Positions 7,186 to 64,000 of a stretch of 64,000 nt of DNA are shown here, in pieces (within the stretch, counting starts at the first letter, position 1; each line of letters opens with the position of its first letter). Both the position numbers and the translations under genes were made by a program. Under the pieces are notes generated by a model, which was given only the letters and a program-made list of their open reading frames with translations, did no database searches and was not told where the DNA came from. Source of the stretch: Larkinella humicola (GTDB lineage: Bacteria > Bacteroidota > Bacteroidia > Cytophagales > Spirosomataceae); contig NZ_VTWS01000007.1 of assembly GCF_008727875.1 (NCBI RefSeq), positions 62,001 to 126,000 of the forward strand, given 5' to 3'.

Positions 7186-7189
7186 CTCG

Positions 7190-7239: not shown

Positions 7240-7241
7240 AA

Positions 7242-10253: not shown

Positions 10254-10320
10254 GGTGGTTTGTTTGGGTTACAGGAATGGTAACCCGCTGAGGAAGGAAG
10301 AAGTTTTGGGAATGGAGTAA

Positions 10321-10424: not shown

Positions 10425-10430
10425 TACTTG

Positions 10431-10522
10431 AATTATAAATGTAAAATGGTGAATATCAAATGTAAAAGTTAGAAGAACCAGCCACTTTTACATTTAATAT
10501 TCACCATTTTACATTTATAATT
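10431..10522. repeat. Intergenic inverted repeat, 38-bp arms with one mismatch
   Basis: The left arm 10431-10468 and right arm 10485-10522 are reverse complements over 38 bp with a single mismatch. Each arm carries the repeated piece AAATGTAAAA. The arm matches the arm of the element at 49269-49361 at about 32 of 38 positions, so these two belong to one sequence family. The right arm ends three bases before the cysteine desulfurase stop. Confidence 0.85.
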
Positions 10523-10524
10523 CC

Positions 10525-22350: not shown

Positions 22351-23346
22351 ATGCGTACCGGCATCTACCTCATTTTCTGCTTGTTATTGGGTCTTACTTT
22401 GGGATGTGAATCTAACTTTGAAGACGTCATAGACAGCGTTTATAAAGACGGGGAAATCAATGGCACCGTTTACCTCAATGATACGTTTACAGACGCGCCC
22501 GTTGTCATTGCACCGGAAGCAACCATTTACCTGACGGCGACCGGCAGTGCCACCACCTACCTAATCAGCACAACCGCGGTTTCAGACGGCAAGTTTACCT
22601 TTTCCCATAAGCCTGCCACCGAAAATTTTTACGTGGTCGGTCGGTTCAAAAATAAAGAGGGCATCCAGTTTGAAAAAGTAATGTCGTATACTGATTTCAA
22701 AAATGATCCTAAATTACTGCTGGAGCCGCAATACCCCGGCGGAAAAATCAAGGTAAAGGCCGTCAATTCTGCGAGTCAGCCACTCTTCGGAGCCGATATC
22801 CTGCTCTTTATCAACCAGGAACAAGCCGAATCGATTGCCGGAACCGCCCCCGCCGGGCAAATCCGGCAAAAGACAACCAACGAAAAAGGAAACGTTTTTT
22901 TCTATGATCTTCCAGCGGGTGACTATTACCTGGCCGGAAAAAAAGACCTTCTGGTTACCAGCCCAACGGCTGCGACCGTCAGTCAATCCAATGTAAATAG
23001 CTTCACAACTGTTCAAACAACACCGGCATCCCTAACGCTTACCATTCCGACGGAATTAACCGTCACCGTCAGGGATCTTAATTCTGACCCGGTGGCTGGT
23101 GCAACGGTTTACGTTTTCAGCAGCCGTACGCAGGCAGCTTCCATCACAACCACTTCGCCCGCTGCCATTGGGAGCAAAATCACCGATAAAAAGGGAGAGG
23201 CAAAGATCACTGGACTAACCGCCGGTACAACGTATTACATTAATGCCAAAGCGACATTTACGGTCAACAATACGGCTCAGGAACGAACCAACAGTACCGG
23301 CCCTGTCTCTGCAACCCTCTCTCAGCCCGTATCGCTTACGTTGTGA
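22351..23346 (+). CDS. Lipoprotein with tandem carboxypeptidase-regulatory-like domains
   Basis: A 331-residue lipoprotein with lipobox LTLGC (Cys19). At least three beta-sandwich repeats of the carboxypeptidase-regulatory-like/SpaA-like type follow, recognised by GKIKVKAVNSASQPLFGADI, NEKGNVFFYDLPAGDYYLAGKK, LTVTVRDLNSDPVAGATVYV and KKGEAKITGLTAGTTYYINAKA. Such domains are structural or adhesive and not enzymatic. The gene follows the large secreted protein after 14 bp and is the last in the four-gene unit. A surface or periplasmic scaffold role is inferred. Confidence 0.75.
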   Translation: MRTGIYLIFCLLLGLTLGCESNFEDVIDSVYKDGEINGTVYLNDTFTDAPVVIAPEATIYLTATGSATTYLISTTAVSDGKFTFSHKPATENFYVVGRFKNKEGIQFEKVMSYTDFKNDPKLLLEPQYPGGKIKVKAVNSASQPLFGADILLFINQEQAESIAGTAPAGQIRQKTTNEKGNVFFYDLPAGDYYLAGKKDLLVTSPTAATVSQSNVNSFTTVQTTPASLTLTIPTELTVTVRDLNSDPVAGATVYVFSSRTQAASITTTSPAAIGSKITDKKGEAKITGLTAGTTYYINAKATFTVNNTAQERTNSTGPVSATLSQPVSLTL

Positions 23347-50034: not shown

Positions 50035-51516
50035 TTATTTGTCCCACCACACGGCGGTGTTGATATCGTTAACTCCCTGGCGGGCGATGGCTGCTTCGAC
50101 TGACGCTTTGTTCAGGCTCAGTTCCGAACTGGGATATGGGAACCGGATTGGAACCTTGTTGCCGTTCAGATTCGACGGACCCGGTTTGATGGCGGGGAAA
50201 CCCGTCCGGCGCCAGTCGAACCACCCCTCCAAACCGCTGTAAAATAACGCAATCCATTTCTGAGTTCCAATCAATTCGAGGGCTTTTGCATCGGTGAAGG
50301 CCACATCCGCCTGGGCCAGATAACCCGCCGGAACGTCCAGACCGTAATAGCCGAAGGACGCTGCAATGCCTTTTTCGTAATAGCTTTTGGCATCGCCGGT
50401 AATCAGTTTCTTCTGGGCAGCTTCGGCCAGAATGAACTGCAATTCTGCGTAGGTCATGATGATGCCTTTGGCAATGTTCAGATTAGCTTCGGTTGGCGTA
50501 CCAAAACCGTCGATGTAATACGTGGCTCCCACCCGCGAAACGTTCTGAGCCCCCCCATTGTAGGTCAGCGCCGAGTTATCGTCCAGACCATTCGGCACAC
50601 CAACATAGGCCGGTTTTCCAGCGGCTACCGACGCCACCGTCGGACGGGCAAAAACCGCCAGACGCGAATCATTCAATTGGGTCAGTTTGTCGCCCAGCGT
50701 TTTGCTCAACCGAAACTCATCGAACGAACCCACCCGCGCAGTGTAAAGCGGGAACTGGTTCGGAACCGTCGGCAGATACCGCAAAGCCGCATTGTCGGAA
50801 TTGCTCGTAAAAACCGGCGTCGTCGTCGGGTTGCTCACAATCGCCTGCAAATCCGCCTTGATGTCGCGTTTGTTCGAAATCCGCATCAGATACCGCACCC
50901 GGAGCGAATTGGCCATTTTCTTCCATTTCGTCACATCACCCCCGAACAGAATATCCCCGTTGACAACGCCGTTTTCCGGGGCCAGCAACGCACTGGCATC
51001 GGCCAGATCTTTCAGAATCCCGTTGTAAATGACTTCCTGCGTATCGTATTTGGGGAAATAAGCTGCGTCTTTACCTTTGGTGGCTTCCGTATAAGGCGCA
51101 TCCCCGTAGGCATCCGTCACCAGCGACATCATCCACGCCTTCATCACCAGCGCAACGGCCTGGTAGTTTTTCTGAACCGGTGTCGTGCTCGACGCGATGT
51201 TGTACATGTTCTGCACTTCCCGAAGCGTCGAATACGTCGTGTTCCAGATTCCGTTCTGTTCACCCCACAGATACCGGTCTTCGTTTACAAACTGAATTTT
51301 AGCCGTATACTGCATCACGCTGTTGCCGATGCCCCAGGCGGTTCCCATGTTCTCGTTGACCGTCGACCGGATGATGTTCGGCAGGAGCAGATCCGCCGTG
51401 ACGGTATTCGGAACGTTGGGGTTGGTATTGATCTCTTCAAACTCGTTGTCGCAGGACGTGCCGACAGCAATCAGCAGCGTCAGGCAGGCGACTAATTTTA
51501 GATATGTTTTTTTCAT
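50035..51516 (-). CDS. SusD/RagB-family outer-membrane lipoprotein
   Basis: A 493-residue lipoprotein with signal and lipobox IAVGTSC (Cys22), then DNEFEEINTNPN, the usual SusD lead-in. The TPR-like helical core has MKAWMMSLVTDAYGDAPYTEA, WKKMANSLRVRYLMRISNK and the C-terminal LIGTQKWIALFYSGLEGWFDWRRTGFP, all diagnostic of the SusD-like_2 group. It caps the SusC-like transporter encoded upstream and captures glycans or peptides at the cell surface. It is the second gene of a SusC/SusD operon; no glycoside hydrolase or regulator accompanies the pair in this window, so the ligand is unknown. Confidence 0.93.
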   Translation of the reverse strand: MKKTYLKLVACLTLLIAVGTSCDNEFEEINTNPNVPNTVTADLLLPNIIRSTVNENMGTAWGIGNSVMQYTAKIQFVNEDRYLWGEQNGIWNTTYSTLREVQNMYNIASSTTPVQKNYQAVALVMKAWMMSLVTDAYGDAPYTEATKGKDAAYFPKYDTQEVIYNGILKDLADASALLAPENGVVNGDILFGGDVTKWKKMANSLRVRYLMRISNKRDIKADLQAIVSNPTTTPVFTSNSDNAALRYLPTVPNQFPLYTARVGSFDEFRLSKTLGDKLTQLNDSRLAVFARPTVASVAAGKPAYVGVPNGLDDNSALTYNGGAQNVSRVGATYYIDGFGTPTEANLNIAKGIIMTYAELQFILAEAAQKKLITGDAKSYYEKGIAASFGYYGLDVPAGYLAQADVAFTDAKALELIGTQKWIALFYSGLEGWFDWRRTGFPAIKPGPSNLNGNKVPIRFPYPSSELSLNKASVEAAIARQGVNDINTAVWWDK

Positions 51517-51519
51517 AAG

Positions 51520-51662
51520 AATGTTGTGGTTGAATGGCTGAATGATTTTAATGGCTGGATGGTCAAATGGTTAGAATGGTTAAATGGCTACCGGAATCGT
51601 AAACTATCCAACCATTTTTAACAATCTTAACCATCTAACCATTTTTAACCATCTAACCTTGA
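51520..51662. repeat. Intergenic imperfect inverted repeat of AATGGCT/AATGGTT units
   Basis: The left part (about 51520-51587) is a run of degenerate units such as GAATGGCTG, AATGGCTGG, AAATGGTTAG, GAATGGTTAAATGGC. The right part (about 51601-51660) is rich in AACCATT and AACCATCT, their reverse complement, with a unit shift. It lies between susC and susD on the same strand, so a hairpin would form inside the operon transcript and could tune the SusC:SusD ratio. Confidence 0.7.
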
Positions 51663-51667
51663 ACAGC

Positions 51668-54600
51668 TTACAGGTTGAAAGATAAGTTTACACCGTAGTT
51701 ACGCGCCGACGGGATGGCGACCGATTCAGAACCCGGAATGATGGTTCCGCCCGATACCGAAGCGGTTTCCGGATCGATGTGCGGCACTTTGGTCCACAAG
51801 AACAGGTTGCGGCCCACCAGCGATAGCGTCACGTTCCGGAACGGCAGTTTTTTGCCCAGAATCGAGTTCGGCAGCGAATAGCCCAGTTTCACTTCACGCA
51901 ACTTGGTGAACGACGCATCGAAAATGGCGTCTTCCAGCACCCGGCGACCGAGTGTAAAGGCCGTGTGCCACTCGCGGGCCGAAATCCGGCGGGCATTGGC
52001 GGCAAACTGGCCTTCCCCGGTTTTCACGACGCCCGGCACCACATAGTACGTTCCGGCCGGGGCATTGGTAAACGTCTTGTCAACCGAGTTGTCGTAATAG
52101 CCATTCTCGCGACCCTGCAAGGTTTCAACCAACTGACCCGCTTCACGACCCACGACGTAGGTGTGGGAATAGACCTCTCCGCCTTTGCGGATATCGAACA
52201 GGAAGCTCAGGTTGAACCCTTTGTATTTGAACGAGTTGTTGATTCCCGCCAGCCAGTCCGGGTTGTAATTCCCCAGCTTTTGCAGGGTCGTCGTTGAAAT
52301 CGGCCGACCGTCGGCAGTGATCACCATCTGACCCACATTCTGGCCGGTTGGGTCGTAATACGGGCTTTTCGGATCGCTGCTAACGCGCTCGTAGGCGTAT
52401 CCGTACATGTCACCCATGCGCTCGTTGACGCGGGCCTGCACCGAGAAATACCGGTTGGCCAGTTCATAGGTCGAAACGCCGTTGGCCAGTTCGAGGACTT
52501 TGCTGCGGTTGCGCGAGAAATTGACGTTCATGTCCCAGCGGAAACCAATGTTGTCCATCCGGATCGGTGTCAGGTTCAGCATCACCTCAATCCCGTTGTT
52601 CTGAATCCGGCCCGCGTTCTGCACAATCTGGCTGTAACCCGTGGTGCCCGAAAGCGGCAGGAAGATGATCTGGTTTTTACTGATCGTGTTGTAATACGTG
52701 AAGTCCAGCCCCACCCGGTTTTTCAGGAACCGCAGATCAAAACCGTATTCCTGCGAACTGCTGATTTCCGGTTTCAGACTCAGGTTCGGAATCCGCGTCG
52801 ATTCGCTGAAGGTTGGCGTCGTTCCCCAGGGTGTTCCCGGATTGAAGGGCTGCGAAAACTGGTAGGGTTCGGTGTCATTTCCAACCTGCGCATAGCCCGC
52901 CCGAACTTTGGCGAACGATACCCATTCCGGCAGTTTCACCCAGTCGCTTACCACCGCACTGAGCGTTCCCGACCAGTAGAAATACGAATTATCGGCCATA
53001 CCGACCACGCCCTGCGGCAGCGTCAGCGTGCTCGACCAGTCGTTCCGGCCCGTCATTTCCAGCGTTAATTTATCGAGGTACGTCAATTGCGCCGACGCAA
53101 ACATACTGTTGATCCGGCGATCGGAGCGGTTTTGCGAGTATTCGAGCGGAACCCGGCTGTTGTTCAGGCTATACACGCCCGGAACCGTCAACTGGGGGGC
53201 GAAATTGTCGATGTAGTCGTATTTGTTCAGCCGTTGATTTCCACCCAATGTGCCGCTGAGCGTAAAGGCGTCGTTGAGTCGTTTGTCTACCAGGAACAAC
53301 AGGTCGGTGTTGCGCTCCATCGTTTTCACGGCTTCGCGCCGGTACGAACCATACGGATACCGCTGCGTACTGAAGGCCCGCTGCCGAACCCGCAGTTCAT
53401 CCTGGTAATCGACCTGTGTCCGGCCCTGCACCGACAGCCAATCCGTCAGTTGATACGACAGCGTGACGTTCCCGATCACGCGGTTGATGTCCTGACCGTT
53501 GGTATTTTCGTACATGTTAAAGTACGGGTTGTCGTGGTAGTTGTAGTTGAAGTTGAACTGCTGGATGCCTTCCAGACCTGGTTGCCAGTAGTTCCGCATC
53601 GACGCCATGTCGATGTGACGGCCCCACCAGCAGTTGAGCAGATACATGATGTTTTCCGTCCCGTAGCTCAGGTTCGGGCGGTTGTCGCTGTGGTTGCGGA
53701 TGTAACTCACGTTCGTCCGCGCCGTGAAGCGATCAGTCAGTTTGTAACCGGCATTGACGTTGAAGGTGTTCCGCGTCAAATCCGTGTTGGGAACAAAGCC
53801 TTTCTGATCCAGGTTGGTAAACGACATCCGGAAATCGCCCTTGTCGTTGCTGCCCGTTACGGCAACGTTATTCGTTACGATGCGACCGGTTTCGAAGAAA
53901 TCGCGGATGCTGTTCGGGTGCGCAATGAACGGCGTGGGTGTTGCCACGCCCGGCCCACCCGGCACTTTGGTATCACCGGCCCGGTAGCCTTTATCGGTGG
54001 GCGAATCGTGCTGAACGATCAGCCGACCGTCCATTTTTGGGCCCCAGCTTTCGTCGACACCGTCGCGCAAACCTCCCCCGGAACCGTCTTTAAAGGCAAA
54101 TTCGCCGTTCAATCCCTGGCCGTAAACATTCTGGTAATCAGGCAGTCGCAGCACAGATTCAAACGTCACGTTGGAGTTGACACTAACGCCGATGCCCTTG
54201 GTGCCCTTGCCGGTTTTGGTCGTGATCACCACCACACCGTTGGCCGCCCGCGAACCGTAGAGTGCCGTGGCGCTGGCTCCTTTTAAAACCGTCATCGTTT
54301 CGACGTCATCCGGATTGATAAAACCGGCCCCGTTTCCGTAGTCGGCGTCCTGGTTATTCCGCCCCGATGAACCGACGAAGTTGTTATTGATCGGCAAGCC
54401 GTCGATCACAAACAGCGGCTGGTTGGCGTTGATGTTCAGCGACTTTTCGCCCCGGATCGTGATCCGCGACGAGCCCCCGATCCCGGATGGGCTGTTGACG
54501 ACGGTCACCCCCGCAATTTTCCCCGCCAACTGGCTGACCAGGTTGGTTTCGCGGGCCTGCGAAAGCGCCGAATTGTCGATTTTCTGGGTCACGTAGCCGA

Positions 54601-54991
54601 GGTTACGCTGCTGTTTGGAAATCCCCAACGCCGTCACGACCACTTCGTTCAGGGCTTGTGTGGAAACCGTCAGCGTAACATTGATCGTCGTTTTGGAACC
54701 GACCGGCACTTCCTGCGCTTCAAATCCGATAAAAGAATAAATTAAAACCGATGACGGATTCGGAACGTTCAGTGTATACGTTCCGTCGGTGCGGGTGGTC
54801 GTACCGGACGTAGTGCCTTTCACCAGAATCGAAACGCCCGGCAGCGCCTGCCCGCCTTCCGACGATACAACCTTGCCGGTAATGGTCTGGGCCAGCAAAG
54901 GCAAGCCCATCAATAAAATAGCCAGAGTCAGGACGGCCCGACGAAAACTGACCCTTCCTGCCCGAATCGAAGAAGGTAGCTTTTGTGTCAT
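51668..54991 (-). CDS. SusC/RagA-family TonB-linked outer-membrane transporter
   Basis: A protein of about 1107 residues from the ATG at 54991, giving a long basic signal peptide (MTQKLPSSIRAGRVSFRRAV...LLAQ). The upstream in-frame ATG at 55069 would add 26 non-signal residues. A CarboxypepD_reg domain (TITGKVVSSEGGQALPGVSI) is followed by the plug (NLGYVTQKIDNS, IRGEKSLNINANQPLFVIDG, GASATALYGSRAANGVVVITTKTG) and the SusC barrel ending SARNYGVNLSFNL with terminal aromatic/Leu residues. This is the SusC-type TonB-dependent importer that works with the SusD lipoprotein downstream. The operon is divergent from the injection-system cluster. Confidence 0.93.
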   Translation of the reverse strand: MTQKLPSSIRAGRVSFRRAVLTLAILLMGLPLLAQTITGKVVSSEGGQALPGVSILVKGTTSGTTTRTDGTYTLNVPNPSSVLIYSFIGFEAQEVPVGSKTTINVTLTVSTQALNEVVVTALGISKQQRNLGYVTQKIDNSALSQARETNLVSQLAGKIAGVTVVNSPSGIGGSSRITIRGEKSLNINANQPLFVIDGLPINNNFVGSSGRNNQDADYGNGAGFINPDDVETMTVLKGASATALYGSRAANGVVVITTKTGKGTKGIGVSVNSNVTFESVLRLPDYQNVYGQGLNGEFAFKDGSGGGLRDGVDESWGPKMDGRLIVQHDSPTDKGYRAGDTKVPGGPGVATPTPFIAHPNSIRDFFETGRIVTNNVAVTGSNDKGDFRMSFTNLDQKGFVPNTDLTRNTFNVNAGYKLTDRFTARTNVSYIRNHSDNRPNLSYGTENIMYLLNCWWGRHIDMASMRNYWQPGLEGIQQFNFNYNYHDNPYFNMYENTNGQDINRVIGNVTLSYQLTDWLSVQGRTQVDYQDELRVRQRAFSTQRYPYGSYRREAVKTMERNTDLLFLVDKRLNDAFTLSGTLGGNQRLNKYDYIDNFAPQLTVPGVYSLNNSRVPLEYSQNRSDRRINSMFASAQLTYLDKLTLEMTGRNDWSSTLTLPQGVVGMADNSYFYWSGTLSAVVSDWVKLPEWVSFAKVRAGYAQVGNDTEPYQFSQPFNPGTPWGTTPTFSESTRIPNLSLKPEISSSQEYGFDLRFLKNRVGLDFTYYNTISKNQIIFLPLSGTTGYSQIVQNAGRIQNNGIEVMLNLTPIRMDNIGFRWDMNVNFSRNRSKVLELANGVSTYELANRYFSVQARVNERMGDMYGYAYERVSSDPKSPYYDPTGQNVGQMVITADGRPISTTTLQKLGNYNPDWLAGINNSFKYKGFNLSFLFDIRKGGEVYSHTYVVGREAGQLVETLQGRENGYYDNSVDKTFTNAPAGTYYVVPGVVKTGEGQFAANARRISAREWHTAFTLGRRVLEDAIFDASFTKLREVKLGYSLPNSILGKKLPFRNVTLSLVGRNLFLWTKVPHIDPETASVSGGTIIPGSESVAIPSARNYGVNLSFNL

Positions 54992-55360
54992 AGTGTAGTT
55001 TGGATGTTCCGGTTTTACGGAAAGTTGAACGATGGATACGAAACGATGGATGCTTTTACGAAACCGCAAAAGTACCCGGCACTTGTGTCGGAATTATTAC
55101 CGAATTATGAACTTTATACTACCGAGGGAAAGAATAATACAAAATTTGCTTTATACCCTGATTAGCAGCATAAATAAGGGGTTATGTTTTAAAATTAAAA
55201 ATAGTATATCGAATAACTTAAAAAAATATTTGAATAATTCGGAACAGGTTTTGGCGCAAAATGACCGCTTAATTAACGGTTTGCCGTTAAATAAATGCTT
55301 CATGGGTTCTAAGCAGCAGGATGAATACCTTTCTGCCCGGTCCTAAACCTCTGTCGTGCT
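54992..55360. other. 369-bp AT-rich divergent control region between susC and the injection-system operon
   Basis: Base composition drops sharply to AT-rich between about 55080 and 55310, unlike the flanking genes. On the minus strand a TAnnTTTG box, TACTTTTG (55074-55067), could serve susC. On the plus strand I see no exact TAnnTTTG for the injection-system operon; AATATTTG near 55.23 kb is one mismatch away. The inverted GTTTGCC/AACGG-like stretch around 55275-55290 is short. No gene is evident. Confidence 0.5.
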
Positions 55361-55960
55361 ATGGTCTATGAAGCGTTGGAATTGATCCGCTCCGAACTGG
55401 AGACGTATGTGAAACCGTTCGCGGATGGCATCACGGTCAATCTGGGCAGCATTGCCGCGGTTGCCGGCACGCAGGCCAACACGATTCTAATCGGTTTGGT
55501 CCATCTGGAAGAAGAAGCAACCCTCAAAAATACCAGCCCCTACCAGCGCAACAGCATCACCGGCGGTTTCGACGTCCGGAATCCGCCCGTTTTCCTGAAT
55601 CTCTACGTGTTGATCAGTGCCAATTATTCGGGAAGCGGTGATTACGAAACCGCTCTGAAACTGCTCTCGCGAACGGTTCAGTGTTTTCAGCAAAAAAACC
55701 AGTTCACGGTTGCCAACACCCTCACGGATAAGATCTTCGACGACCCGCAAGCCCTGATGCTGCGCATGACCGTCGAGTTGCATAGCCTCTCGTTCGAGAA
55801 ACTGAATCAGCTCTGGGGAACCCTCGGCGGCAAGCAGGTGCCATCGGTCGTGTATAAAGTCCGGGTCGTGGAAGAACAGGCCGAAGGGCAGTTCGGCGCC
55901 GGAACGCCGATTCTGTCGTTTGAAGGCATTCGAAAACCGGTCCCGATTTCTTCGGAGTGA
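55361..55960 (+). CDS. eCIS tail-terminator/cap protein, DUF4255 (Pvc16/Afp16-like)
   Basis: A 199-residue protein matching the DUF4255 family: MVYEALELIRSELETYV start, NTILIGLVHLEEEATLKN, PPVFLNLYVLISANYS, ALKLLSRTVQCFQQ, LRMTVELHSLSFEKLNQLWGTLGGKQVPSVVYKVRV. In phage-tail-like injection systems DUF4255 proteins (Afp16/Pvc16) terminate tube growth and fix tail length. The protein follows the AT-rich control region and is the first gene of the cluster, which runs without strand change to the window end. The C-terminus carries a short variable tail. Confidence 0.9.
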   Translation: MVYEALELIRSELETYVKPFADGITVNLGSIAAVAGTQANTILIGLVHLEEEATLKNTSPYQRNSITGGFDVRNPPVFLNLYVLISANYSGSGDYETALKLLSRTVQCFQQKNQFTVANTLTDKIFDDPQALMLRMTVELHSLSFEKLNQLWGTLGGKQVPSVVYKVRVVEEQAEGQFGAGTPILSFEGIRKPVPISSE

Positions 55961-56014
55961 AAGTCCTTCGCATCCTGACCCCCTTCCATCCTCACCTCTT
56001 TCCGTTGTTTCCCG

Positions 56015-56845
56015 ATGAAACCGCTTCTTCCCGAATCGTTTGGCATCAGCTACCAGATTCTGTTCACCGTCCGGGTGCAGCACCGGTATTTCCTGGATTT
56101 TGGGAGCACGCCTTTCGATACGGCTGCGCCATCGGCTGAAGCACGAAAGAAAATCGGGCTGATCCGGCGGGTGTATGACGTCTCCCAATTCCTGGCGTTT
56201 CTGCCCGATGCCCCGACCCACCAGCTCCTGAAAAACCAGCGGATGCTCTTCAAAAAACAGGCTGACGGTTTTGTGGTGCTGGCAGCTACCGAAAATCCCC
56301 GCAGTCCAACGCCCTTCCTGCCCCTTGCTGCAGGTCTGAAGTTCGTCTTCGCTGTGTATCCAACCGATCCGTTTTTCATGCTTTATACAAACCTGACGCC
56401 CGAAGTCATGAACGAGCTGAAACGACCGGGTCGTGGTTTCCGGCTCAAAAACCGCAACTCATCTGCCAATCCGTTGGAAAACCGTTTGAATACCGGAGAA
56501 ACGATCCGGATGGCCGATCTGGAAGACCAGCCACCGGAACACGCGGTGACCGGACGGCTGGAGCGGCCCCTGGGCTTCATCGAAATTGAACACGCCCCCC
56601 CGACCCGCAGCCTGCTGACGGCGGAGGATGCGCTTCAGCCCACGCTCACTTACACGCTGACGTTGCAAAACCGCACGACCCGCTGGCGGCTGAAAAACGA
56701 TGCGCCCGGTGACTTTGCGGGCGAACACCAACTGGTAAAAAACGGACTGATTCCCGCGGTGAACGGCACGACCAAACTCGCCAATCCGACACCCGCGACC
56801 ACCACCTTCGAAAACGACGGACACTTTTATTCCACAATTTATTAA
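56015..56845 (+). CDS. Unknown eCIS-associated protein
   Basis: A 276-residue protein with no signal peptide. It begins MKPLLPESFGISYQILFTVRVQHRYFLDF, followed by a helical part (RRVYDVSQFLAFLPDAPTHQLL) and beta stretches (LKFVFAVYPTDPFFMLYTNL, LTYTLTLQNRTTRWRLKND). The C-terminal part, from FIEIEHAPP to DGHFYSTIY, looks like a compact beta domain. I do not recognise a family. It is encoded between the cap protein and the sheath (54 and 24 bp gaps), so it is almost certainly a structural or assembly component, perhaps a collar or sheath-initiator piece; that role is inference only. Confidence 0.7.
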   Translation: MKPLLPESFGISYQILFTVRVQHRYFLDFGSTPFDTAAPSAEARKKIGLIRRVYDVSQFLAFLPDAPTHQLLKNQRMLFKKQADGFVVLAATENPRSPTPFLPLAAGLKFVFAVYPTDPFFMLYTNLTPEVMNELKRPGRGFRLKNRNSSANPLENRLNTGETIRMADLEDQPPEHAVTGRLERPLGFIEIEHAPPTRSLLTAEDALQPTLTYTLTLQNRTTRWRLKNDAPGDFAGEHQLVKNGLIPAVNGTTKLANPTPATTTFENDGHFYSTIY

Positions 56846-56869
56846 ACCCCAGTCAAACCTCTTCTGCTC

Positions 56870-59086
56870 ATGGCAAGTACACTCAATTTAGCGACGCTGA
56901 AAACTCCGGGCGTCTACATCGACGAGGTGTCGCTGTTCCCGCCATCCGTGGCCCAGGTCGAAACCGCCATTCCGGCCTTTATCGGTTACACCCGGTTTGC
57001 CGAAAAAGATGGCAAGGACATTACCGGGAAAGCGTTAAAAATCAAGTCGATGGTCGATTACCGGACGTATTTCGGCGGAGGGCCGGATCGGGAAATCACG
57101 GTCAGTCTGGGCCCAACCAACGCCGTAAAAAATGTCGACATGCAACCGGCCTGGTACCTGCACGACAGCCTGATGCTGTTTTTTGCCAACGGCGGGGAGA
57201 AATGTTACATCCTTTCAGTGGGCGGATACGACACCAACCCGGTTTCCCAGACCCATTTTACGGACGCCATCGACGAACTGAAAAAACACGACGAACCCAC
57301 CCTGCTCGTGATGCCCGACCTGATGCTGCTGACCAACCCGGCTCACATTGCTGCGGTTCAACAGGCGGCCATCGACCATTGCAACAAATTGCAGGATCGC
57401 TTCGCCATTCTGGATGTCAAGGTAAATGATCTGACCAAAACCGCCGTTGACGATGCCGACATTACCGCCTTCCGGGGCAGCGTTTCCAACTTTCTGAAAT
57501 ACGGAGCGGCCTATTATCCCTGGCTCAAAACCTCCCTGCCGTTTGACATGAGCTTCGCCGGTTTGACGATCACCAAAGGCGGAAATCCAACCACGCTGGG
57601 TGCGCTTCTGGACCCGGGGGCTCCCAACAACGCCCTGCTGACCGAAGCGGACACCCTGGCGACCGATGGGTTTGCCGACACAAAAGCCATTCAGAATGTG
57701 GCCGTTCCGGCGGTCGTGGACTACCAGGCTTCGGCGGATAAAGAAGCGAAAAAGACGTTCATCTCGGCCGCCATTACCGCCTTTGATGGAATTGACCCGG
57801 ACACGGTTTTCAAAAACAAACCCGTTCAGGATGTGCTGAAAGCCTTTACCGATGCGGGAAATGCCGAATGGCTGGCGATCCAGAGCGATAACACGGCGCT
57901 GGTGGTTACGGGTGATCCGGGCACCCATTCAACGGATGCCGCCATCGACGCGGTTTTTAACCGGCTGGTTGCCTTCATCACGCGATTCAAAACCGAAGCC
58001 AAAACCGCACTCCCGGCTTTGCTGACGGCCAAGCAGCTCGAAATCCAGCAGAAAATTCCGCTGTTTGCACTGGTTCGCAAAGCCGAAACCCTCGTCGCCG
58101 ATCAAACGATCGTCAATGACCTGGTGGAAAGCAGCACGACGGCGTATGAAGCGGCTGGTACAACGGCCACCAAAAAAACGGAGTTGCTGAAGGCGCTCAA
58201 TGCGTTTAACGGCTCCCCCGCTGCACTGGCGTTTACAAATACCGATGTTCGGCTGAGCTACCAGGACTATACGGACCAGGCCACACCTTCGGCCGCCGGA
58301 AAAAAACTGACCGATCTTCTGGCCAGTGCAACGGCCCTGTCGGGTTCCAATGCGTCGGCTTACGACGACAAGTTTGCGGAAGTGACCGGTTACATCGCCG
58401 AATTTCAGGCGCTCCTGACCGCGCGTCTGAAATCGCTGGAACTGGAAATGAAGTCAAAAATTCCGGTGTATGCCGCCATCGTTTCGGCCACCGAAGCGCA
58501 GGGCATCATCCTGCCGCCCAGTGGTGCCGTAGCCGGGGTGTACGCCAGCGTCGACGAAAACCGGGGTGTCTGGAAAGCACCGGCCAACGTGGGCATCTCC
58601 AACGTCGTCGGGCCAACGGTTTTGATTACCGATTCCGATCAGGAAAGCCTGAATGTCGATGTCGATGCCGGTAAATCCATCAACGCCATCCGGTATTTTA
58701 CGGGCAAGGGAACGCTCGTTTGGGGTGCACGAACACTGGCGGGCAACGACAACGAATGGCGCTATATCTCGGTTCGGCGATTTTTCATCATGGTGGAAGA
58801 GTCGGTTAAGAAAGCCTCCGGCCAGTTTGTTTTTGAACCCAACGACGCCAATACCTGGGTGAAAGTGCGGGCCATGATCGAGAATTTCCTGACGCTGCAA
58901 TGGCGGGCCGGGGCACTGGCGGGGGTTAAACCCGAACACGCGTTCTACGTCCGCGTCGGCCTGGGCCAGACCATGACCGCCCAGGACATCCTGAACGGTT
59001 TTCTGATTGTCGAAATCGGGATGGCGGTGGTTCGTCCGGCCGAATTCATTGTCTTACGCTTCTCCCACAAAATGCAGGAATCTTAA
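56870..59086 (+). CDS. eCIS contractile sheath protein with large internal insertion
   Basis: A 738-residue sheath protein. The N-terminal part (LKTPGVYIDEVSLFPPSVAQVETAIPAFIGYT) and C-terminal part (ILPPSGAVAGVYASVDENRG, VWKAPANVG, RRFFIMVEESVKKASGQFVFEPND, FIVLRFSHKMQES) are canonical for phage-like/PVC sheath subunits. Typical PVC/AFP sheath proteins are roughly 350-480 residues; here residues about 210-515 are an Ala/Thr-rich helical insertion. The helix LLTAKQLEIQQKIPLFALV near residue 383 resembles LLTARLKSLELEMKSKIPVY near 513, suggesting partial duplication. The sheath contracts to drive the tube. Only one sheath gene is present in the window, whereas PVC/AFP have several. Confidence 0.92.
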   Translation: MASTLNLATLKTPGVYIDEVSLFPPSVAQVETAIPAFIGYTRFAEKDGKDITGKALKIKSMVDYRTYFGGGPDREITVSLGPTNAVKNVDMQPAWYLHDSLMLFFANGGEKCYILSVGGYDTNPVSQTHFTDAIDELKKHDEPTLLVMPDLMLLTNPAHIAAVQQAAIDHCNKLQDRFAILDVKVNDLTKTAVDDADITAFRGSVSNFLKYGAAYYPWLKTSLPFDMSFAGLTITKGGNPTTLGALLDPGAPNNALLTEADTLATDGFADTKAIQNVAVPAVVDYQASADKEAKKTFISAAITAFDGIDPDTVFKNKPVQDVLKAFTDAGNAEWLAIQSDNTALVVTGDPGTHSTDAAIDAVFNRLVAFITRFKTEAKTALPALLTAKQLEIQQKIPLFALVRKAETLVADQTIVNDLVESSTTAYEAAGTTATKKTELLKALNAFNGSPAALAFTNTDVRLSYQDYTDQATPSAAGKKLTDLLASATALSGSNASAYDDKFAEVTGYIAEFQALLTARLKSLELEMKSKIPVYAAIVSATEAQGIILPPSGAVAGVYASVDENRGVWKAPANVGISNVVGPTVLITDSDQESLNVDVDAGKSINAIRYFTGKGTLVWGARTLAGNDNEWRYISVRRFFIMVEESVKKASGQFVFEPNDANTWVKVRAMIENFLTLQWRAGALAGVKPEHAFYVRVGLGQTMTAQDILNGFLIVEIGMAVVRPAEFIVLRFSHKMQES

Positions 59087-59099
59087 CTCATAACCGATC

Positions 59100-59534
59100 A
59101 TGGCAGCAGTCTATCCATTACCCAAATTTCATTTTCAGGTTGAGTGGGGCGGAGTCCGCCTGGGATTCTCGGAAGTGACCGGTCTAAACGTCGAAACCGA
59201 TGTGATCGAATACCGCGAGGGCGCATCGCCCGAGTATCACAAAATCAAAATGCCCGGTTTGCAGAAGTTCCCCAACATCACCCTGAAACGCGGGACGTTC
59301 AAAGCCGACAACGAATTTTTCAACTGGTGGAATACCGTGGCCCTGAACACCATCGAACGTCGCAACCTGATTATCAGCCTGCTCAACGAAAATCACGAGC
59401 CGGTGGTGGTCTGGAAAGTCAAGCAGGCCTGGCCGTCGAAAGTGATGTCGGGCGATTTGAAAGCCGACGCCAACGAGGTGCTGATCGAGAGCATCGAGCT
59501 GGTGCACGAAGGGTTGACCATCCAGAACGAATAA
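59100..59534 (+). CDS. eCIS inner tube protein (gp19/Pvc1-like), copy 1
   Basis: A 144-residue tube subunit of the T4 gp19-like family: KFHFQVEWGGVRLGFSEVTGLNVETDVIEYREGASPEYHKIKMPG, NITLKRGTF, WWNTV and the final EVLIESIELVHEGLTI. These subunits stack as hexameric rings forming the needle inside the sheath. It lies 13 bp after the sheath gene. It is similar in design to the next gene but diverged (VTGLNVE is shared). Confidence 0.92.
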   Translation: MAAVYPLPKFHFQVEWGGVRLGFSEVTGLNVETDVIEYREGASPEYHKIKMPGLQKFPNITLKRGTFKADNEFFNWWNTVALNTIERRNLIISLLNENHEPVVVWKVKQAWPSKVMSGDLKADANEVLIESIELVHEGLTIQNE

Positions 59535-59537
59535 TGT

Positions 59538-59987
59538 ATGGCGGGGCTAGTCTATCCACCGGTTGGCTTTCATTTTGTGGTAGAATTCGAACTCTTTCCG
59601 CAGACGGCTCAGGACACCCGGTTTCAGGAAGTCACGGGGCTGAATGTCGAAATGCAGATGGAAAGCATCCGGGAAGGGGGCGAAAACCGCTTTGAACACC
59701 AGTTGCCGGTTCGCACCAAATACAGCGACCTGGTGCTGAAACGGGGTCTTTTCGTGGGGTCAGACGTGTACCGATGGGCAAAAGACGCGTTCGAAAACTT
59801 TCAGTTTCAACCCGTTAACCTGTTGGTAACGCTGCTCAACGATCAACACGCTCCGCTGGTCTCGTGGCATGTGGTCCATGCGTTGCCGAAAAAGTGGGAC
59901 ATCTCCGCTTTCAATGCCGAACAGAACACCATTGCCATCGAAACGTTGACGCTCACGTACCGCTATTACACCACCATCCGGATCTGA
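59538..59987 (+). CDS. eCIS inner tube protein (gp19/Pvc5-like), copy 2
   Basis: A 149-residue paralogue of the preceding tube protein: GFHFVVEFELFPQTAQDTRFQEVTGLNVEMQMESIREGGENRFEHQLPVRTKYSDLVLKRGLF and NTIAIETLTLTYRYYT. In PVC/AFP systems one tube paralogue forms the main needle and another the baseplate-proximal layer; the longer N-terminal loop here suits the latter, but this is inference. Three bases separate it from the previous stop, so the two are translationally linked. Confidence 0.9.
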   Translation: MAGLVYPPVGFHFVVEFELFPQTAQDTRFQEVTGLNVEMQMESIREGGENRFEHQLPVRTKYSDLVLKRGLFVGSDVYRWAKDAFENFQFQPVNLLVTLLNDQHAPLVSWHVVHALPKKWDISAFNAEQNTIAIETLTLTYRYYTTIRI

Positions 59988-59990
59988 ACC

Positions 59991-60155
59991 ATGCCCATTA
60001 TTATTCGCGAACTGGTCATCACGGCCACGGTCGACGGCAATGCCGCCCGACAGGTCACCTCAGCCGCTACCCCGCCCGCCGACGCGCAGAAGCAACTCGT
60101 CCGCCAGTGTGTCGAGCAGGTGCTGGCCATTTTAAGGGAGAAAACCGAACGGTAA
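59991..60155 (+). CDS. Small DUF5908-like eCIS protein
   Basis: A 54-residue frame (MPIIIRELVITATVDGN start, ending QKQLVRQCVEQVLAILREKT) with its ATG three bases after the tube gene stop. The MPIxIRELVIxATV start followed by a short linker and a C-terminal amphipathic helix is what I remember of the DUF5908 family found between tube and LysM genes of injection-system clusters. Function is not known to me; a small baseplate or tube-tip adaptor is a reasonable guess. It is short enough to be missed by automatic annotation. Immediately downstream is a large inverted repeat. Confidence 0.75.
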   Translation: MPIIIRELVITATVDGNAARQVTSAATPPADAQKQLVRQCVEQVLAILREKTER

Positions 60156-60158
60156 GAC

Positions 60159-60290
60159 GGTTTACGGTTTTCAGTTTATGGTTTACGGTGGCTAACGCAT
60201 ACTTAGGACGCGTCAGCCACCGTAAACCGTAAACCATAAACCGAAAACTGAAAACTGAAAACCATAAACCATAAACCATAAAACCGCTTA
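60159..60290. repeat. Inverted repeat inside the eCIS operon, TTTACGG-type tandem arms
   Basis: GTTTACGGTGGCT (60181-60193) pairs exactly with AGCCACCGTAAAC (60215-60227) and the pairing extends outward through GGTTTACGGTTTTCAGTTTA on the left and a longer run of AAACCGT, AAACCAT and GAAAACT units on the right (to about 60290). The loop is about 20 nt. It fills the only sizeable gap in the cluster, 138 bp between the DUF5908-like gene and the LysM gene. Core and units match the elements at 30261-30338 and 31703-31802. Confidence 0.85.
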
Positions 60291-60293
60291 CAC

Positions 60294-61013
60294 ATGCTGG
60301 GCGAACTGGTTAAAATGAAGCTGACGGGTTATCACGATGTTGGTTTTAAAGAACGAACGGGTGAGGAATACACGGCGGTGGTCAACCCCGAAACTTACAC
60401 GCTGAACTACGAAATTCAGGCGAATCAGGAAAGTGCAGGCGGCACGAGCGCGAACCAATCGACGTTCAACAAAATCGCTCCGCGCAAGCTGGAGTTTGAA
60501 TTTCTGTTCGATTCCACGGGTGCCCTCACGCAGACGGGAACCGCCCCGCCCCGGTCGGTCGGCACCAGCCAGGGCGTTTGGGAGCAAGTGGAGCAGTTGA
60601 AGAAAACGTCGTTCGATTTCATCGGTGAAACCCACCAGCCGCCGTACGTTGAACTGGCGTGGGGCAAGCTGATTTTCAAGTGCAAAACCGAGAAAATCAA
60701 CATTACCTACAAGCTGTTCAAACCCGATGGAACGCCCGTCCGCGCCATCGCCAAGGTCAGTTTTGTAGAGGTCATCAACGACGAGCTTCGCACCAAAAAA
60801 GAAAAAACTGCGTCGCCGGATCTGACCCACCTTCGCACCGTTCAGGAAGGCGACACGCTGCCGCTGATGTGCCACCGGATCTACGGCGATTCGACGCTCT
60901 ACCGGGAAGTCGCCCGCGTGAACAAGCTGGTGAATTTCAGAAAGCTACCGACCGGGATGCGACTCTTTTTTCCGCCCATTGACAAGCAGCAAACCGTAAA
61001 CCGTAAACCGTAA
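60294..61013 (+). CDS. eCIS tube/baseplate adaptor with LysM domain (Pvc7-like)
   Basis: A 239-residue protein. Residues about 1-170 match the contractile-injection tube-like domain that precedes LysM in these clusters (MKLTGYHDVGFKERTGEEYTAVVNPETYTLNYE, RKLEFEFLFDSTG, YVELAWGKLIFKCKTEKINITYKLF, PVRAIAKVSFVEV). Residues about 179-228 are a LysM domain (RTVQEGDTLPLMCHRIYGDSTLYREVARVN, LPTGMRLFFPP). It corresponds to Pvc7/Afp7 or T4 gp53-like adaptors joining tube and baseplate. The last residues (TVNRKP) are encoded by a 7-bp tandem repeat that runs past the stop. Confidence 0.9.
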   Translation: MLGELVKMKLTGYHDVGFKERTGEEYTAVVNPETYTLNYEIQANQESAGGTSANQSTFNKIAPRKLEFEFLFDSTGALTQTGTAPPRSVGTSQGVWEQVEQLKKTSFDFIGETHQPPYVELAWGKLIFKCKTEKINITYKLFKPDGTPVRAIAKVSFVEVINDELRTKKEKTASPDLTHLRTVQEGDTLPLMCHRIYGDSTLYREVARVNKLVNFRKLPTGMRLFFPPIDKQQTVNRKP

Positions 61014-61018
61014 ACCGT
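60991..61018 (+). repeat. Four tandem copies of AAACCGT spanning a stop codon
   Basis: Perfect heptamers at 60991-60997, 60998-61004, 61005-61011 and 61012-61018. They encode the last six residues and stop of the LysM protein and end five bases before the VgrG-like start. The unit is the same as in the inverted repeat 700 bp upstream. Confidence 0.9.
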
Positions 61019-61022
61019 CCCC

Positions 61023-62780
61023 ATGCCCGAGAATCCGCGCATACTCGAAACCCCCGCCCCCCGCGACCTGCCCACCTACACCCTCTTTCTGGAAGAGCAG
61101 GCGCTGGAAACGATGTTTCAGGTGTTGTCGATCCGGGTTCAGAAGGAGGTCAACCGGATTCCGACTGCCTACCTCACGCTGAAAGACGGCGATCCGGCGT
61201 CCGGGAATTTTCCGGCCAGCAACGACAGCCGGTTTGTTCCCGGAAAAAAGCTGGAAATCAAGGCGGGGTATCACCAAACGGAGAAAACGATTTTCAAAGG
61301 CATCCTGGTTCGGCAGGGAATCGAAGCCCAGTCGACCGGAACCACCCGGCTGAACCTGCTCGCCAAAGACGTCTGGGTGAAGACGACGCTCGTGCCGAAA
61401 CGCCGGTATTTCACCGAAAAGAAGGATTCGGAAGCCGCCGAAGAAATCGCGCAGACGTATCGCGGTTTGGAAATCGACGCCGAAGACACCGGTTTTCAGC
61501 ACGAAGAATTGATTCAGTATGACGCCACGGACTGGGATTACCTCGTGATGCGGGCCGAAATCAACGGCAGGTTGTGCCTGACCGACGATGGAAAGCTGAC
61601 GATTCAAAAACCGGATTTTGACCAGGAACCGGTGGTCGAATTGCAATTCGGAGCCACCATGCTGGATTTCGACGCCGAAATGGACGCCCGCGATCAGGTC
61701 ACGACGCTGAAAACCACCACCTGGAATTATGCCGACCAGGAACTGGCCGAAGCCGAAGCCGCCGAGCCAGCCGGGATCGAATCGGGAAACCTCTCGGCGC
61801 AGGATCTGGCCGAAGCGTTGACCGCCGAAGCGGTTTTTCAGCACGGCGGAAAACTCGAAACGGAGGAGTTGCAAACCTGGGCCGATGCCGCGCTGCTCAA
61901 ACGCCGGATGGCCAAAATCCGGGGTCGGGTGCGGTTTTACGGCCATGCCGACGTCAAGCCGGGTCTGATGATCAGCCTCGGCGGGCTGGGTGACCGCTAC
62001 AATGGCAAGGTGTTCGTAACGGGCGTCAGTCACCAGTTGGCGGAAGGCAGTTGGGAAACGAACGTGCAGTTTGGCCTGAGTCCACAGTGGTTTGTGTCGG
62101 AAATGAACGTCGGCCAGACGCCAGCCGCCGGGTTGTTGCCCGCTATGGGCGGTTTGCAGATTGGCGTGGTGACCGGTCTGGAAGGCGATGCAACGGGCGA
62201 GGAGCGGATTCTGGTACGACTGCCGGTGATCGATCCGGCGGCCGAAGGCACCCGCGCCCGCGTCGCCAGCCTGGATGCCGGCCAGGAACGGGGCTTCTTT
62301 TTCCGGCCCGAAATCGGTGATGAAGTGGTGGTCGGTTTTCTGAACAACGACCCGCGCGAGGCCGTGGTGCTGGGCGGTTTGCACAGTAGCCAGAAAAACC
62401 TGCCGGAACCGTTTACCACCACCGACGACAACCACCGGAAAGGCTACGTTTCGCGCAGCAAACTGAAACTGGTTTTTGATGACGAGAAGAAAATTCTGAC
62501 CATCGAAACCCCGGCGGGGAATCTGTTCAAACTGGACGAGGACGCCAAAAGCATTACGCTACAGGATCAGAATGGTAACAAACTGATTCTAAACGACCAG
62601 GGTATTCAACTGGAAAGCAGCAAAGACCTGACGCTGAAAGCCGCCGGTAACGTCAAAATCGAAGGCGTTGGCGTGGAAGCGAAGGCTTCCGCCCAGTTTA
62701 AAGCGACCGGTTCGGCAGGTGTGGAAATGAGCAGTTCCGCCACGGCGGTTTTGAAAGGGTCAATCGTACAGATCAATTAA
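61023..62780 (+). CDS. eCIS spike protein, VgrG/Pvc8-like
   Basis: A 585-residue protein. Residues about 1-350 form the gp27-like hub (YTLFLEEQALETMFQVLSIRVQKEVNRIPTAYLTLKDGD, KLEIKAGYHQTEKTIFKGILVRQ, TLKTTTWNYADQELAEAEA). Residues about 379-455 form the gp5 OB-fold (IGVVTGLEGDATGEERILVRLPVIDP, RGFFFRPEIGDEVVVGFLNNDPREAVVLGG). The C-terminus is a short beta-helix needle rich in ITLQDQNGNKLILNDQGIQL repeats and ends KGSIVQIN. It is the central spike under the tube. No effector domain is fused. A PAAR tip gene does not follow directly. Confidence 0.92.
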   Translation: MPENPRILETPAPRDLPTYTLFLEEQALETMFQVLSIRVQKEVNRIPTAYLTLKDGDPASGNFPASNDSRFVPGKKLEIKAGYHQTEKTIFKGILVRQGIEAQSTGTTRLNLLAKDVWVKTTLVPKRRYFTEKKDSEAAEEIAQTYRGLEIDAEDTGFQHEELIQYDATDWDYLVMRAEINGRLCLTDDGKLTIQKPDFDQEPVVELQFGATMLDFDAEMDARDQVTTLKTTTWNYADQELAEAEAAEPAGIESGNLSAQDLAEALTAEAVFQHGGKLETEELQTWADAALLKRRMAKIRGRVRFYGHADVKPGLMISLGGLGDRYNGKVFVTGVSHQLAEGSWETNVQFGLSPQWFVSEMNVGQTPAAGLLPAMGGLQIGVVTGLEGDATGEERILVRLPVIDPAAEGTRARVASLDAGQERGFFFRPEIGDEVVVGFLNNDPREAVVLGGLHSSQKNLPEPFTTTDDNHRKGYVSRSKLKLVFDDEKKILTIETPAGNLFKLDEDAKSITLQDQNGNKLILNDQGIQLESSKDLTLKAAGNVKIEGVGVEAKASAQFKATGSAGVEMSSSATAVLKGSIVQIN

Positions 62781-62787
62781 CGAAACG

Positions 62788-63246
62788 ATGGTATCGGAAA
62801 ACGATTTTTTAGGCCGTGGCTGGAGCTTTCCACCAGCATTCAACCCGCAGTCGTCGCCCAAAAGCGTGGCGATGACGGCGGGGCTGGCCGACATCGAGCG
62901 CAGTTTGCACATCCTGCTGACCACCCAGCCCGGCGAACGGCTGATGGTGCCCGATTTTGGTTGCGACCTGCAGGATATTCTGTTCGAACCGATCAGTACG
63001 GCTTTGCAGGCGCGGGTGAAAGACCGCGTCGAAACGGCCATTCTGTATTTCGAACCCCGCATCGACCCGCTTGATGTCACGATTGAAGAACCGCCCGAAC
63101 AGCCTGGCTTGCTGCTAATTACGGTCAACTACCGCGTTCGCAGCACCAACACCCGGTACAATTTTGTGTATCCGTTTTACAAAAACGAAGGAACCGAAAT
63201 CTCGAATTCAGCCGACCCATCCAGCCTGCCATCCTTTAGCCGTTAA
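62788..63246 (+). CDS. eCIS baseplate protein, GPW/gp25 family (Pvc9-like)
   Basis: A 152-residue protein with the gp25 core: GWSFPPAFNPQSSPKSVAMTAGLADIERSLHILLTTQPGERLMVPDFGCDLQDILFEPIST and RVETAILYFEPRIDPLDVTIE. The PGERLMxPDFGC signature is diagnostic. gp25-like proteins nucleate sheath assembly at the baseplate wedge. It starts seven bases after the spike stop. The last 15 residues form a Ser-rich tail. Confidence 0.93.
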   Translation: MVSENDFLGRGWSFPPAFNPQSSPKSVAMTAGLADIERSLHILLTTQPGERLMVPDFGCDLQDILFEPISTALQARVKDRVETAILYFEPRIDPLDVTIEEPPEQPGLLLITVNYRVRSTNTRYNFVYPFYKNEGTEISNSADPSSLPSFSR

Positions 63247-63258
63247 CCAACCGCACCC

Positions 63259-64000
63259 ATGTCGCAGCCGTGTCCCGACAAAAATCCGCTCCAACGCGAT
63301 GGACTCAGTCAGCCCCAGCGCCGACTCCCCGCGTTGCAACCGGAAAACACGCTCCTCGATGAGCGCAAGCCGAAAGACTTGCTGCGGTTTCTGGCTTTGT
63401 ATGCCCAGGAAGCCCGAATCCGGTTTTTCGACGCCACCAATACGCCCGACAACGGTGCCCTCTGGGCCGACCTGATGAACTTTGAGCGGTATTTTTCGCT
63501 GGATGAGCTAAAGACCCGCAGCGACATCGAACCCCATTTTGCACTGATTCTCAGCTTTTTGCACCTGTTTGAAAAGCTCCAGGCCCACCAGAATACCTTA
63601 ACCAAACGACACCTCGATTTTTACTACCGGGACGTATTGCAACTGAGTCCGCTGGCCCCGGTTCCCGACCGCGTCCACGTTTTGTTCGAGTTGGCGAAAA
63701 ACGCAACAGAGCAGATCATTGCGGCAAAAACCGAACTGGACGCGGGGAAAGATGGTCAGAAACAGCCGCTGATCTACCAAACCGCCCACAACCTGATCGC
63801 CAACCGGGCGAAAATCAGCCATCTCCGGACGGTTTTTCGGTCGGGTGCGAAAGTCTATTGTGCGCCGGTTGCCAATACGGCCGATGGCGTCGCCGAAACC
63901 CTCACGCCCGAAAATCCGGGCTGGAACGGATTTGGCCCCAAGGGCGGTGCCAGCAAAAACCGGTTTCCCGAGGCACGGCTGGGGTTCGCACTGGCGTCGC
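63259..64000 (+). CDS. eCIS large baseplate component, N-terminal part (gpJ/Pvc11-like), cut by window end
   Basis: An open frame from the ATG at 63259 continues past the window end (at least 247 residues). The start is a Pro/Gln-rich linker (MSQPCPDKNPLQRDGLSQPQ), then helical sequence (PKDLLRFLALYAQEARIRFFDATN, ALILSFLHLFEKLQAHQNTLTKRHLDFYYRDVLQL) and PVPDRVHVLFELAKNATEQIIAAKTELDAGKD, in which TELDAGKD resembles the GTxLDAGTD loop of baseplate-J proteins. Position after gp25 and this motif support a wedge protein of the gpJ/gp6 type. Length in related clusters is often over 1000 residues; the truncation is due only to the window edge. Confidence 0.8.
   Translation, partial: MSQPCPDKNPLQRDGLSQPQRRLPALQPENTLLDERKPKDLLRFLALYAQEARIRFFDATNTPDNGALWADLMNFERYFSLDELKTRSDIEPHFALILSFLHLFEKLQAHQNTLTKRHLDFYYRDVLQLSPLAPVPDRVHVLFELAKNATEQIIAAKTELDAGKDGQKQPLIYQTAHNLIANRAKISHLRTVFRSGAKVYCAPVANTADGVAETLTPENPGWNGFGPKGGASKNRFPEARLGFALAS

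Follow-up and report, generated by a model that had tools for sequence, protein, structure and literature searches.

The 64,000-nucleotide window analysed here, positions 62001-126000 of contig C18 in the 7.86-Mb genome of Larkinella humicola (G000), ends inside an operon that encodes an extracellular contractile injection system (eCIS). Followed into the flanking contig, this operon comprises 16 genes, all on the plus strand at 55361-79009, with the window end at 64000 cutting the tenth (g10); all positions are given on the window axis, which is extended beyond 64000 and equals the region coordinate plus 55000. Intergenic gaps do not exceed 54 bases or are overlaps throughout, the sole exception being a gap of 138 bases (60156-60293). 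The ten genes listed by the original prediction are all present on the plus strand in the order it gave, all but the second supported by Pfam, with the tenth running past the window end; the second, "unknown" there, is similar to the cap adaptor of AlgoCIS (E 2.1e-5), and the tape measure, AAA ATPase, fibre and effector genes that it expected to the right of 64 kb all lie within the next 15 kb. Cap, sheath, tube, spike, gp25, baseplate J, AAA ATPase and eCIS_core profiles thus match within one operon, a run that is beyond chance, and the sheath and eCIS_core profiles each have a single match in the whole genome.

An AlgoCIS-type injection system

The original prediction was right about the eCIS class and named the PVC/AFP type; by sheath and spike scores, however, the closer relative is AlgoCIS of Algoriphagus machipongonensis (sheath, E 1.5e-141 versus 2.1e-59 for Afp3 and 1.4e-58 for Pvc2; spike, 1.3e-187 versus 2.4e-39 for Afp8 and 3.3e-31 for Pvc8). 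AlgoCIS is likewise the best relative of the baseplate J and wedge proteins, and its solved chains are also matched by the cap adaptor, plug and fibre. Its marks include a single-domain cap, as described for the 197-residue Alg16A (PMC8894135), together with a cap adaptor and a plug; a spike cage would complete the set, since g10 aligns to Alg11 (7aeb_G) in a single, near-full-length stretch (residues 86-983 to 107-1034), so that the Alg11-type cage region is probably present. As far as best matches define kinship, the machine is therefore an AlgoCIS-type eCIS, AlgoCIS itself being described as subtype Ib (PMC8894135, PMC13314943). It differs from AlgoCIS in its shorter fibre (g12, 998 versus 1443 residues) and in a PAAR gene that lies outside the operon, on another contig. 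The best stretch of g12 aligns to residues 15-520 of a PKD protein that is 1443 residues long (9wt0_a), which is taken as Alg19 because the AlgoCIS fibre of that name is reported to have the same length (PMC13314943); the best chain for the spike, 7aef_q, bears the PDB label "SerB". Second closest for sheath, wedge, baseplate and spike is the thylakoid-anchored contractile injection system (CIS) of Anabaena (PMC8894136), to whose chains the plug and cap adaptor are slightly nearer than to those of AlgoCIS.

Contractile parts and a VgrG-like spike are common to eCISs, phages and type VI secretion systems (T6SSs), yet a defective prophage or a T6SS is scarcely credible as the identity of this locus. 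The rightward extension called for by the original prediction revealed no head or packaging gene among the 16 operon genes, which are flanked by TonB-receptor-/SusD-like genes on the left and a LacI-type gene on the right, with further genes as open reading frames (ORFs) only. The case that the prediction made against a T6SS holds for TssN, whose best match genome-wide (E 0.0059) reaches 17.8 of the 30.3 bits required, TssJ, TssL and TssM not having been searched for. Moreover, AlgoCIS is the nearest relative of sheath, wedge, baseplate and spike alike.

Table 1. Features of the eCIS locus on the extended window axis, with the PAAR gene of contig C11.
Feature	Assignment	Position	Strand	Support
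g01	cap, single-domain, Alg16A-like	55361..55960	+	Pfam Pvc16_N (formerly DUF4255) 3e-34, 178/199 aa
g02	cap adaptor, Alg16B-like	56015..56845	+	no Pfam; PDB 7adz_1A "cap adaptor protein" 2.1e-5; All3326 1.6e-5
g03	sheath, 738 aa	56870..59086	+	Pfam sheath 3.7e-13 and 2.6e-9; AlgoCIS 7adz_2A 1.5e-141
g04	inner tube	59100..59534	+	Phage_T4_gp19 3.9e-49
g05	inner tube or tube initiator, role judged from gene order	59538..59987	+	Phage_T4_gp19 7.3e-42
g06	plug, Alg6-like	59991..60155	+	DUF5908 4.1e-18; PDB 7aef_t "inner protein (Algo6)" 2.9e-6; Asl3322 1.2e-7
g07	tube protein ending in a LysM-like (Phage_tail_X) part, Alg7-like judging from its domain order	60294..61013	+	CIS_tube 5.8e-48; Phage_tail_X 8.6e-4, under cut-off
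g08	VgrG-like spike, Alg8-like	61023..62780	+	7aef_q 1.3e-187, residues 4-585; Phage_base_V 3e-17; TIGR01646 9.4e-69
g09	gp25 sheath initiator	62788..63246	+	GPW_gp25 6.2e-27
g10	baseplate J, Alg11-like	63259-66216 (in window to 64000)	+	Baseplate_J 1.1e-6; 7aeb_G 2.2e-137
g11	wedge, Alg12-like, 899 aa	66233-68932	+	7aeb_A 7.4e-146
g12	fibre, Alg19-like, 998 aa	68937-71933	+	9wt0_a 6.9e-63, best stretch 28-533; All3314 1.4e-41
g13	tape measure	71957-73417	+	CIS_TMP 4.3e-105, profile positions 1-463 of 463
g14	effector	73414-76740	+	eCIS_core 6.5e-32; HELTH motif at 74080
g14, carrier	carrier ("pretoxin") domain	75034-75852	+	profile in part seeded by it 1.5e-112; profile from other species only 8.6e-110
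g14, tip	tip	75853-76740	+	DVDH motif at 76483
g15	propeller	76750-77658	+	WD40 5.7e-6 (27.1 bits, cut-off 27)
g16	AAA ATPase	77651-79009	+	AAA 8.4e-29; CDC48-like 5.9e-41
Exchanged block	tip, g15, ~67 first ATPase codons	75852-77852
Exchanged ATPase stretch	~67 codons	77651-77852
PAAR gene	lone PAAR gene, 97 residues	G000:C11:760146-760355 (L031 8113-8406)	-	between DUF255/thioredoxin-like gene and ruvC

An exchanged block at the cargo end

The CIS_TMP tape measure occurs in 20 of 150 genomes of the family, and all 20 clusters, the window's own included, were examined. Two sister species of the same genus (G091 and G108) carry loci collinear with that of L. humicola, in which effector residues 1-813 are nearly invariant (780/813 identical in G091, 785/813 in G108); past residue 813 follow three different tips that give no convincing alignment among one another. 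At the DNA level, long stretches with 91-94% identity extend to region base 20851-20854 and start again at 22853-22872; the left joint lies at the GRRLVG codons and the right joint at the LLLALAPHLQP codons of the ATPase. Because of where these joints fall, the exchanged block consists of the toxin tip, the propeller gene (in L. humicola only) and about 67 first codons of the ATPase gene, whose exchange may just mark where recombination homology resumes or may bear on cargo recognition. The block has a GC content of 0.506 in L. humicola, 0.496 in G091 and 0.439 in G108, compared with 0.561 for the portion of the L. humicola operon that precedes it. Besides the block, the three loci differ in the 138-base gap, which is shorter in both sisters, and in part of the G108 fibre gene, which is unaligned.

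With a constant N-terminal part and a C-terminal toxin that varies between close relatives, the effector has a defining property of polymorphic toxins. It resembles the PVC-type polymorphic toxins, described as an N-terminal PVC-metallopeptidase (eCIS_core) followed by a variable C-terminal toxin (PMC3482391); since that account by Zhang et al. (2012) already sets out a constant peptidase with variable toxins, the principle is not new. What distinguishes the present case from the toxins as described there is a conserved, unnamed domain of 273 residues between the two parts, a same-genus cassette exchange of which both joints are mapped, and a propeller as candidate immunity protein.

A conserved carrier domain precedes diverse tips

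The 273-residue carrier domain that separates the peptidase-like part from the tip was found, with a profile iterated from four seeds, in 70 copies covering more than 200 of its positions. These belong to 68 ORFs in 68 of 101 sources, namely 80 loci, the clusters of 19 relatives, the window's own and that of an Oscillatoria plasmid. The 80 loci scored highest among 555 confirmed tblastn matches; since the query contained the domain, they do not measure its frequency, whereas tip diversity is free of that selection. By record title, the carriers include alpha-, beta- and gammaproteobacteria, cyanobacteria, actinobacteria, Bacteroidetes, Chlorobi, Desulfobulbaceae, Geobacter, a Binataceae and a Brocadia, some of these groups being presumed from genus names. 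Among the family genomes the domain is confined to 9 of 150, all of them within the 20 that have an eCIS. Searches of Pfam and NCBIfam with 56 members gave no convincing match (best Pfam E 9.9e-4, from a family that matches 3 members; best NCBIfam 1.2e-3). A 19-residue window with a mean hydropathy of at least 1.6 is present in 55 of 69 domains, mostly exceeding that value by little (median 1.78), and the domain might have a part in membrane crossing. In two loci, L113 (5212-15249) and L149 (3904-11847), a giant single effector ORF (3345 and 2647 aa, respectively) contains two copies of the domain.

In layout, the effector can be likened to Tme of Streptomyces davawensis, which is described as DUF4157 followed by a tape-measure-like region and a nuclease (PMC11126660), in that an N-terminal DUF4157, a hydrophobic middle and a C-terminal nuclease, here a predicted one, follow one another. 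A derivation of the carrier domain from a phage tape measure protein could be read from PHROG, one tape-measure profile of which is matched by 48 of 56 members at E ≤1 (best tape-measure E 1.1e-9). When sequences were reversed as a control, however, 10 of 10 members matched at least one tape-measure profile at E ≤1 (best 1.3e-5), so that the similarity may be compositional. These matches were accordingly dropped as evidence of homology, and the likeness to Tme is weakened at this point; the best forward match still exceeds any reversed one, and we regard a tape-measure remnant as an unlikely origin of the domain.

The tips that follow the domain differ among the scanned sources, 69 of at least 60 residues falling into 45 tail clusters. 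A tail is shared by 2 of 25 pairs whose carriers are at least 90% identical and by 21 of 1728 pairs at 20-40%. A Pfam scan of 53 of the 69 (one per ORF, closed, 60-620 aa long and from loci with a name) identified 15 Endonuclea_NS_2, 2 Ntox15 and a few deaminases or Tox-REase-7, leaving many without a name; judging from these families, the named tips appear to be largely directed at nucleic acids. Kinship between tips spans phyla, linking L. humicola to Oscillatoria, G091 to a cyanobacterium and Flavobacterium, and G108 to Rhodococcus.

A probable immunity slot downstream of the effector

Of 64 effector ORFs, 43 are followed by a same-strand ORF starting within 60 bases; after removal of 6 core- or effector-like neighbours, 37 were kept, which as mechanical calls may include some "neighbours" that are not genes. 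Neighbours are related in 7 of 11 pairs with related tips and in 9 of 655 other pairs, and none of 10000 shuffles of the pairing reached 7 (maximum, 6); counted by cluster, 3 of 4 show at least one neighbour match. Tips and next genes are thus paired non-randomly. A positive control is provided by the Ntox15 cluster, where the neighbour of all four tips is GAD-like/Tdi1_C, as confirmed by Pfam: the families of the toxin and immunity protein reported as Tde1/Tdi1 of a T6SS (PMC10470768) here fill the same slot in four related eCIS effectors, although this is not the pair found in L. humicola. By its neighbourhoods, then, the gene after the effector appears to behave as an immunity slot, and in L. 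humicola the g15 propeller is most likely the immunity protein for the tip.

The L. humicola tip and its propeller neighbour

The tip is predicted, indirectly, to be a basic HNH-type nuclease. Profile comparison aligns it at 96.8% probability with a group of tips from L192, L122, L156, L174 and G091, within which GH-E is hit by one tip at 5.1e-8 and, short of the cut-off, by another at 0.0054. Its calculated isoelectric point is 9.46, that of the g15 propeller 5.89. An Oscillatoria plasmid encodes a DUF4157 protein whose C-terminus resembles the tip (26% identity across 98% of the query; 2e-16). This protein is encoded inside a plasmid-borne CIS cluster, and 12 bases downstream of its gene is a WD40-like gene similar to g15 (3e-10).

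Relatives of the tip were sought in genome contigs, viral contigs, phages, plasmids, Bacteroidota and cyanobacteria. None was confirmed in the genome or viral contigs, none was found in phages, and one plasmid matched among 72,556 records. Within Bacteroidota, matches came from 5 of the 296 genomes searched at phylum level and 3 of the 395 at class level, convincingly only L. humicola itself, with weak partial matches in G200, G342, G365 and G216 and in G008 and G753; cyanobacteria yielded 1 of 386, and a further, partial match in 1 of 19 that turned out to be a tip of the L122 type. For g15, the 150 family genomes contain only g15 itself and one partial WD match, and the plasmids one partial match. 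Among the titles and abstract openings listed in searches of open-licence PMC papers, none reports immunity to an eCIS toxin through a WD40 or beta-propeller protein, and none gives the carrier domain a name.

In the cyanobacterium UBA11372 (L122), a row of immunity-like genes (6896-11596) stands behind the eCIS effector. It contains a propeller closely related to that of Oscillatoria (7e-63) and flanked by two copies of another gene, 48% identical to each other over 249 aa, which also adjoins related tips; a SUKH/SUFU gene then follows. No tip of the L. humicola/Oscillatoria kind was found in this row, which gave only a weak match (0.004), to the effector tip of L122 itself. Orphan immunity genes are arranged in this manner in other polymorphic toxin loci. 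SUKH and SUFU are both listed as immunity families (PMC3482391).

Proposed mechanism, targets and alternatives

In the mechanism that we consider probable, sheath, tube, caged spike and fibres would be assembled in the cytoplasm and the AAA ATPase would load the effector into the particle; as modelled on AlgoCIS, particles would then be freed by lysis and fire when their fibres bind a target. The effector is a polymorphic toxin whose eCIS_core metallopeptidase-like domain and partly hydrophobic domain of about 273 residues bear an exchangeable tip, replaced, probably by recombination, as a block reaching from the end of the carrier to about codon 67 of the ATPase. Its predicted basic HNH-type nuclease tip would attack other bacteria, and the WD40 propeller of the same block would shield the producer.

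Several observations weigh against parts of this reading. In Pfam, the tip has no significant match (best GmrSD_C, E 0.13). The similarity between g15 and the Oscillatoria propeller lies mostly within the WD40 repeats, which are common. Both the pairing test and the tail-sharing test rest on few independent cases, because a single Ntox15 cluster supplies 5 of the 7 matching neighbour pairs, and seven Flavobacterium loci supply 21 of the 25 carrier pairs of high identity. The immunity role of g15 in particular is challenged by a third full-length relative of the tip, in cyanobacterium G827 (L194; E 5.2e-26), which lacks a propeller: its next ORF of at least 150 aa is CIS_tube-like (2.7e-5, just under the cut-off). 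Moreover, the slot is empty in both sister loci, no gene separating effector and ATPase in G091, whose tip belongs to the HNH-linked group, or in G108, whose tip has no assignment. WD40 proteins often act as scaffolds, and the same eCIS with the same swapped tip could carry the propeller as an additional cargo, as an adaptor for loading or as a hitch-hiker in the block. We hold this to be somewhat unlikely, given that the tip-propeller neighbourhood recurs in another phylum, that a known immunity family occupies the slot when the tip is Ntox15, and that g15 is opposite in charge to the tip and has, by eye, no hydrophobic leader at its N-terminus.

Other bacteria are suggested as targets because the propeller is most likely an immunity protein; an immunity-like neighbour would serve no purpose against eukaryotes, and AlgoCIS particles are reported to bind a bacterium through their fibres (PMC13314943). 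An effector directed at eukaryotes (protists, algae, plants or animals) or, as in Streptomyces, at the producer's own population would be in keeping with the four eCISs described as acting between bacteria and invertebrate hosts (PMC8213781), with Tme, which is reported to work in its producer (PMC11126660), and with the notable share of PVC toxins listed without an adjacent immunity gene (PMC3482391); on balance we judge such targets improbable. Two groups describe many eCIS toxins, bacteria-killing ones included, as lacking an obvious immunity gene (PMC3482391, PMC8213781).

A wider proposal, which we put forward as speculation with rather poor odds, is that eCISs of many phyla share the 273-residue domain as a socket for toxin-immunity cassettes traded across phyla, that the WD40 propeller represents a new immunity class, and that the ATPase N-terminus travels along to recognise each new tip. 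The carrier domain ahead of the tip offers a handle for a systematic search for tips and partner genes. Neutralisation of the tip by the propeller, if it occurs, would speak for an eCIS that acts on bacteria and for an immunity fold of a new kind. Because the ATPase N-terminus is exchanged along with the tip, recognition of cargo by this loading ATPase becomes open to testing.

Release and spike tip

The original prediction left open a released or a thylakoid/envelope-anchored particle. In Anabaena, the anchor is described as an extra domain of the baseplate protein Cis12 together with fibre extensions (PMC8894136). With All3315 taken to be Cis12, the wedge is 899 aa long here and 933 in Alg12 but 1335 in Anabaena, whose long extension is therefore missing, and the fibre measures 998 aa against 1476 for All3314. 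Thylakoid anchoring was rejected on the wedge lengths; as the wedge lacks this extension and TssN is below its cut-off, a released particle is favoured.

No PAAR gene was found in the operon, and the single match above cut-off in the genome, on contig C11, probably encodes the spike tip in trans. PAAR genes were found in 20 of 20 genomes with the eCIS tape measure and in 1 of 4 congeners without it (24 genomes checked). In 6 of these 20 (G000, G091, G108, G058, G123 and G120), the coordinates place PAAR far from the cluster, for which reason its position here is read as a split locus and not as disqualifying the eCIS.

Other features of the locus

At the C-terminus of the fibre (71256-71972), the G108 alignment breaks within the fibre gene and the G108 copy is longer, so that the receptor-binding end of the fibre seems to vary too. 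The ATG of the effector gene overlaps the tape measure stop by 4 bases. To the right, the LacI-type regulator lies on the opposite strand and overlaps the operon end; to the left, a TonB-dependent-receptor-like gene and its SusD-like partner occupy 50035-55069 on the minus strand. A scan upstream of g01 for a promoter or terminator found none, and an Rfam scan of L003 gave no match. The 138-base gap is about 100-120 bases longer than in the two sister species and is rich in partly palindromic AAACCGTAAACC repeats; short matches also occur elsewhere in the window, at 30319, 31795 and 60991-61019.

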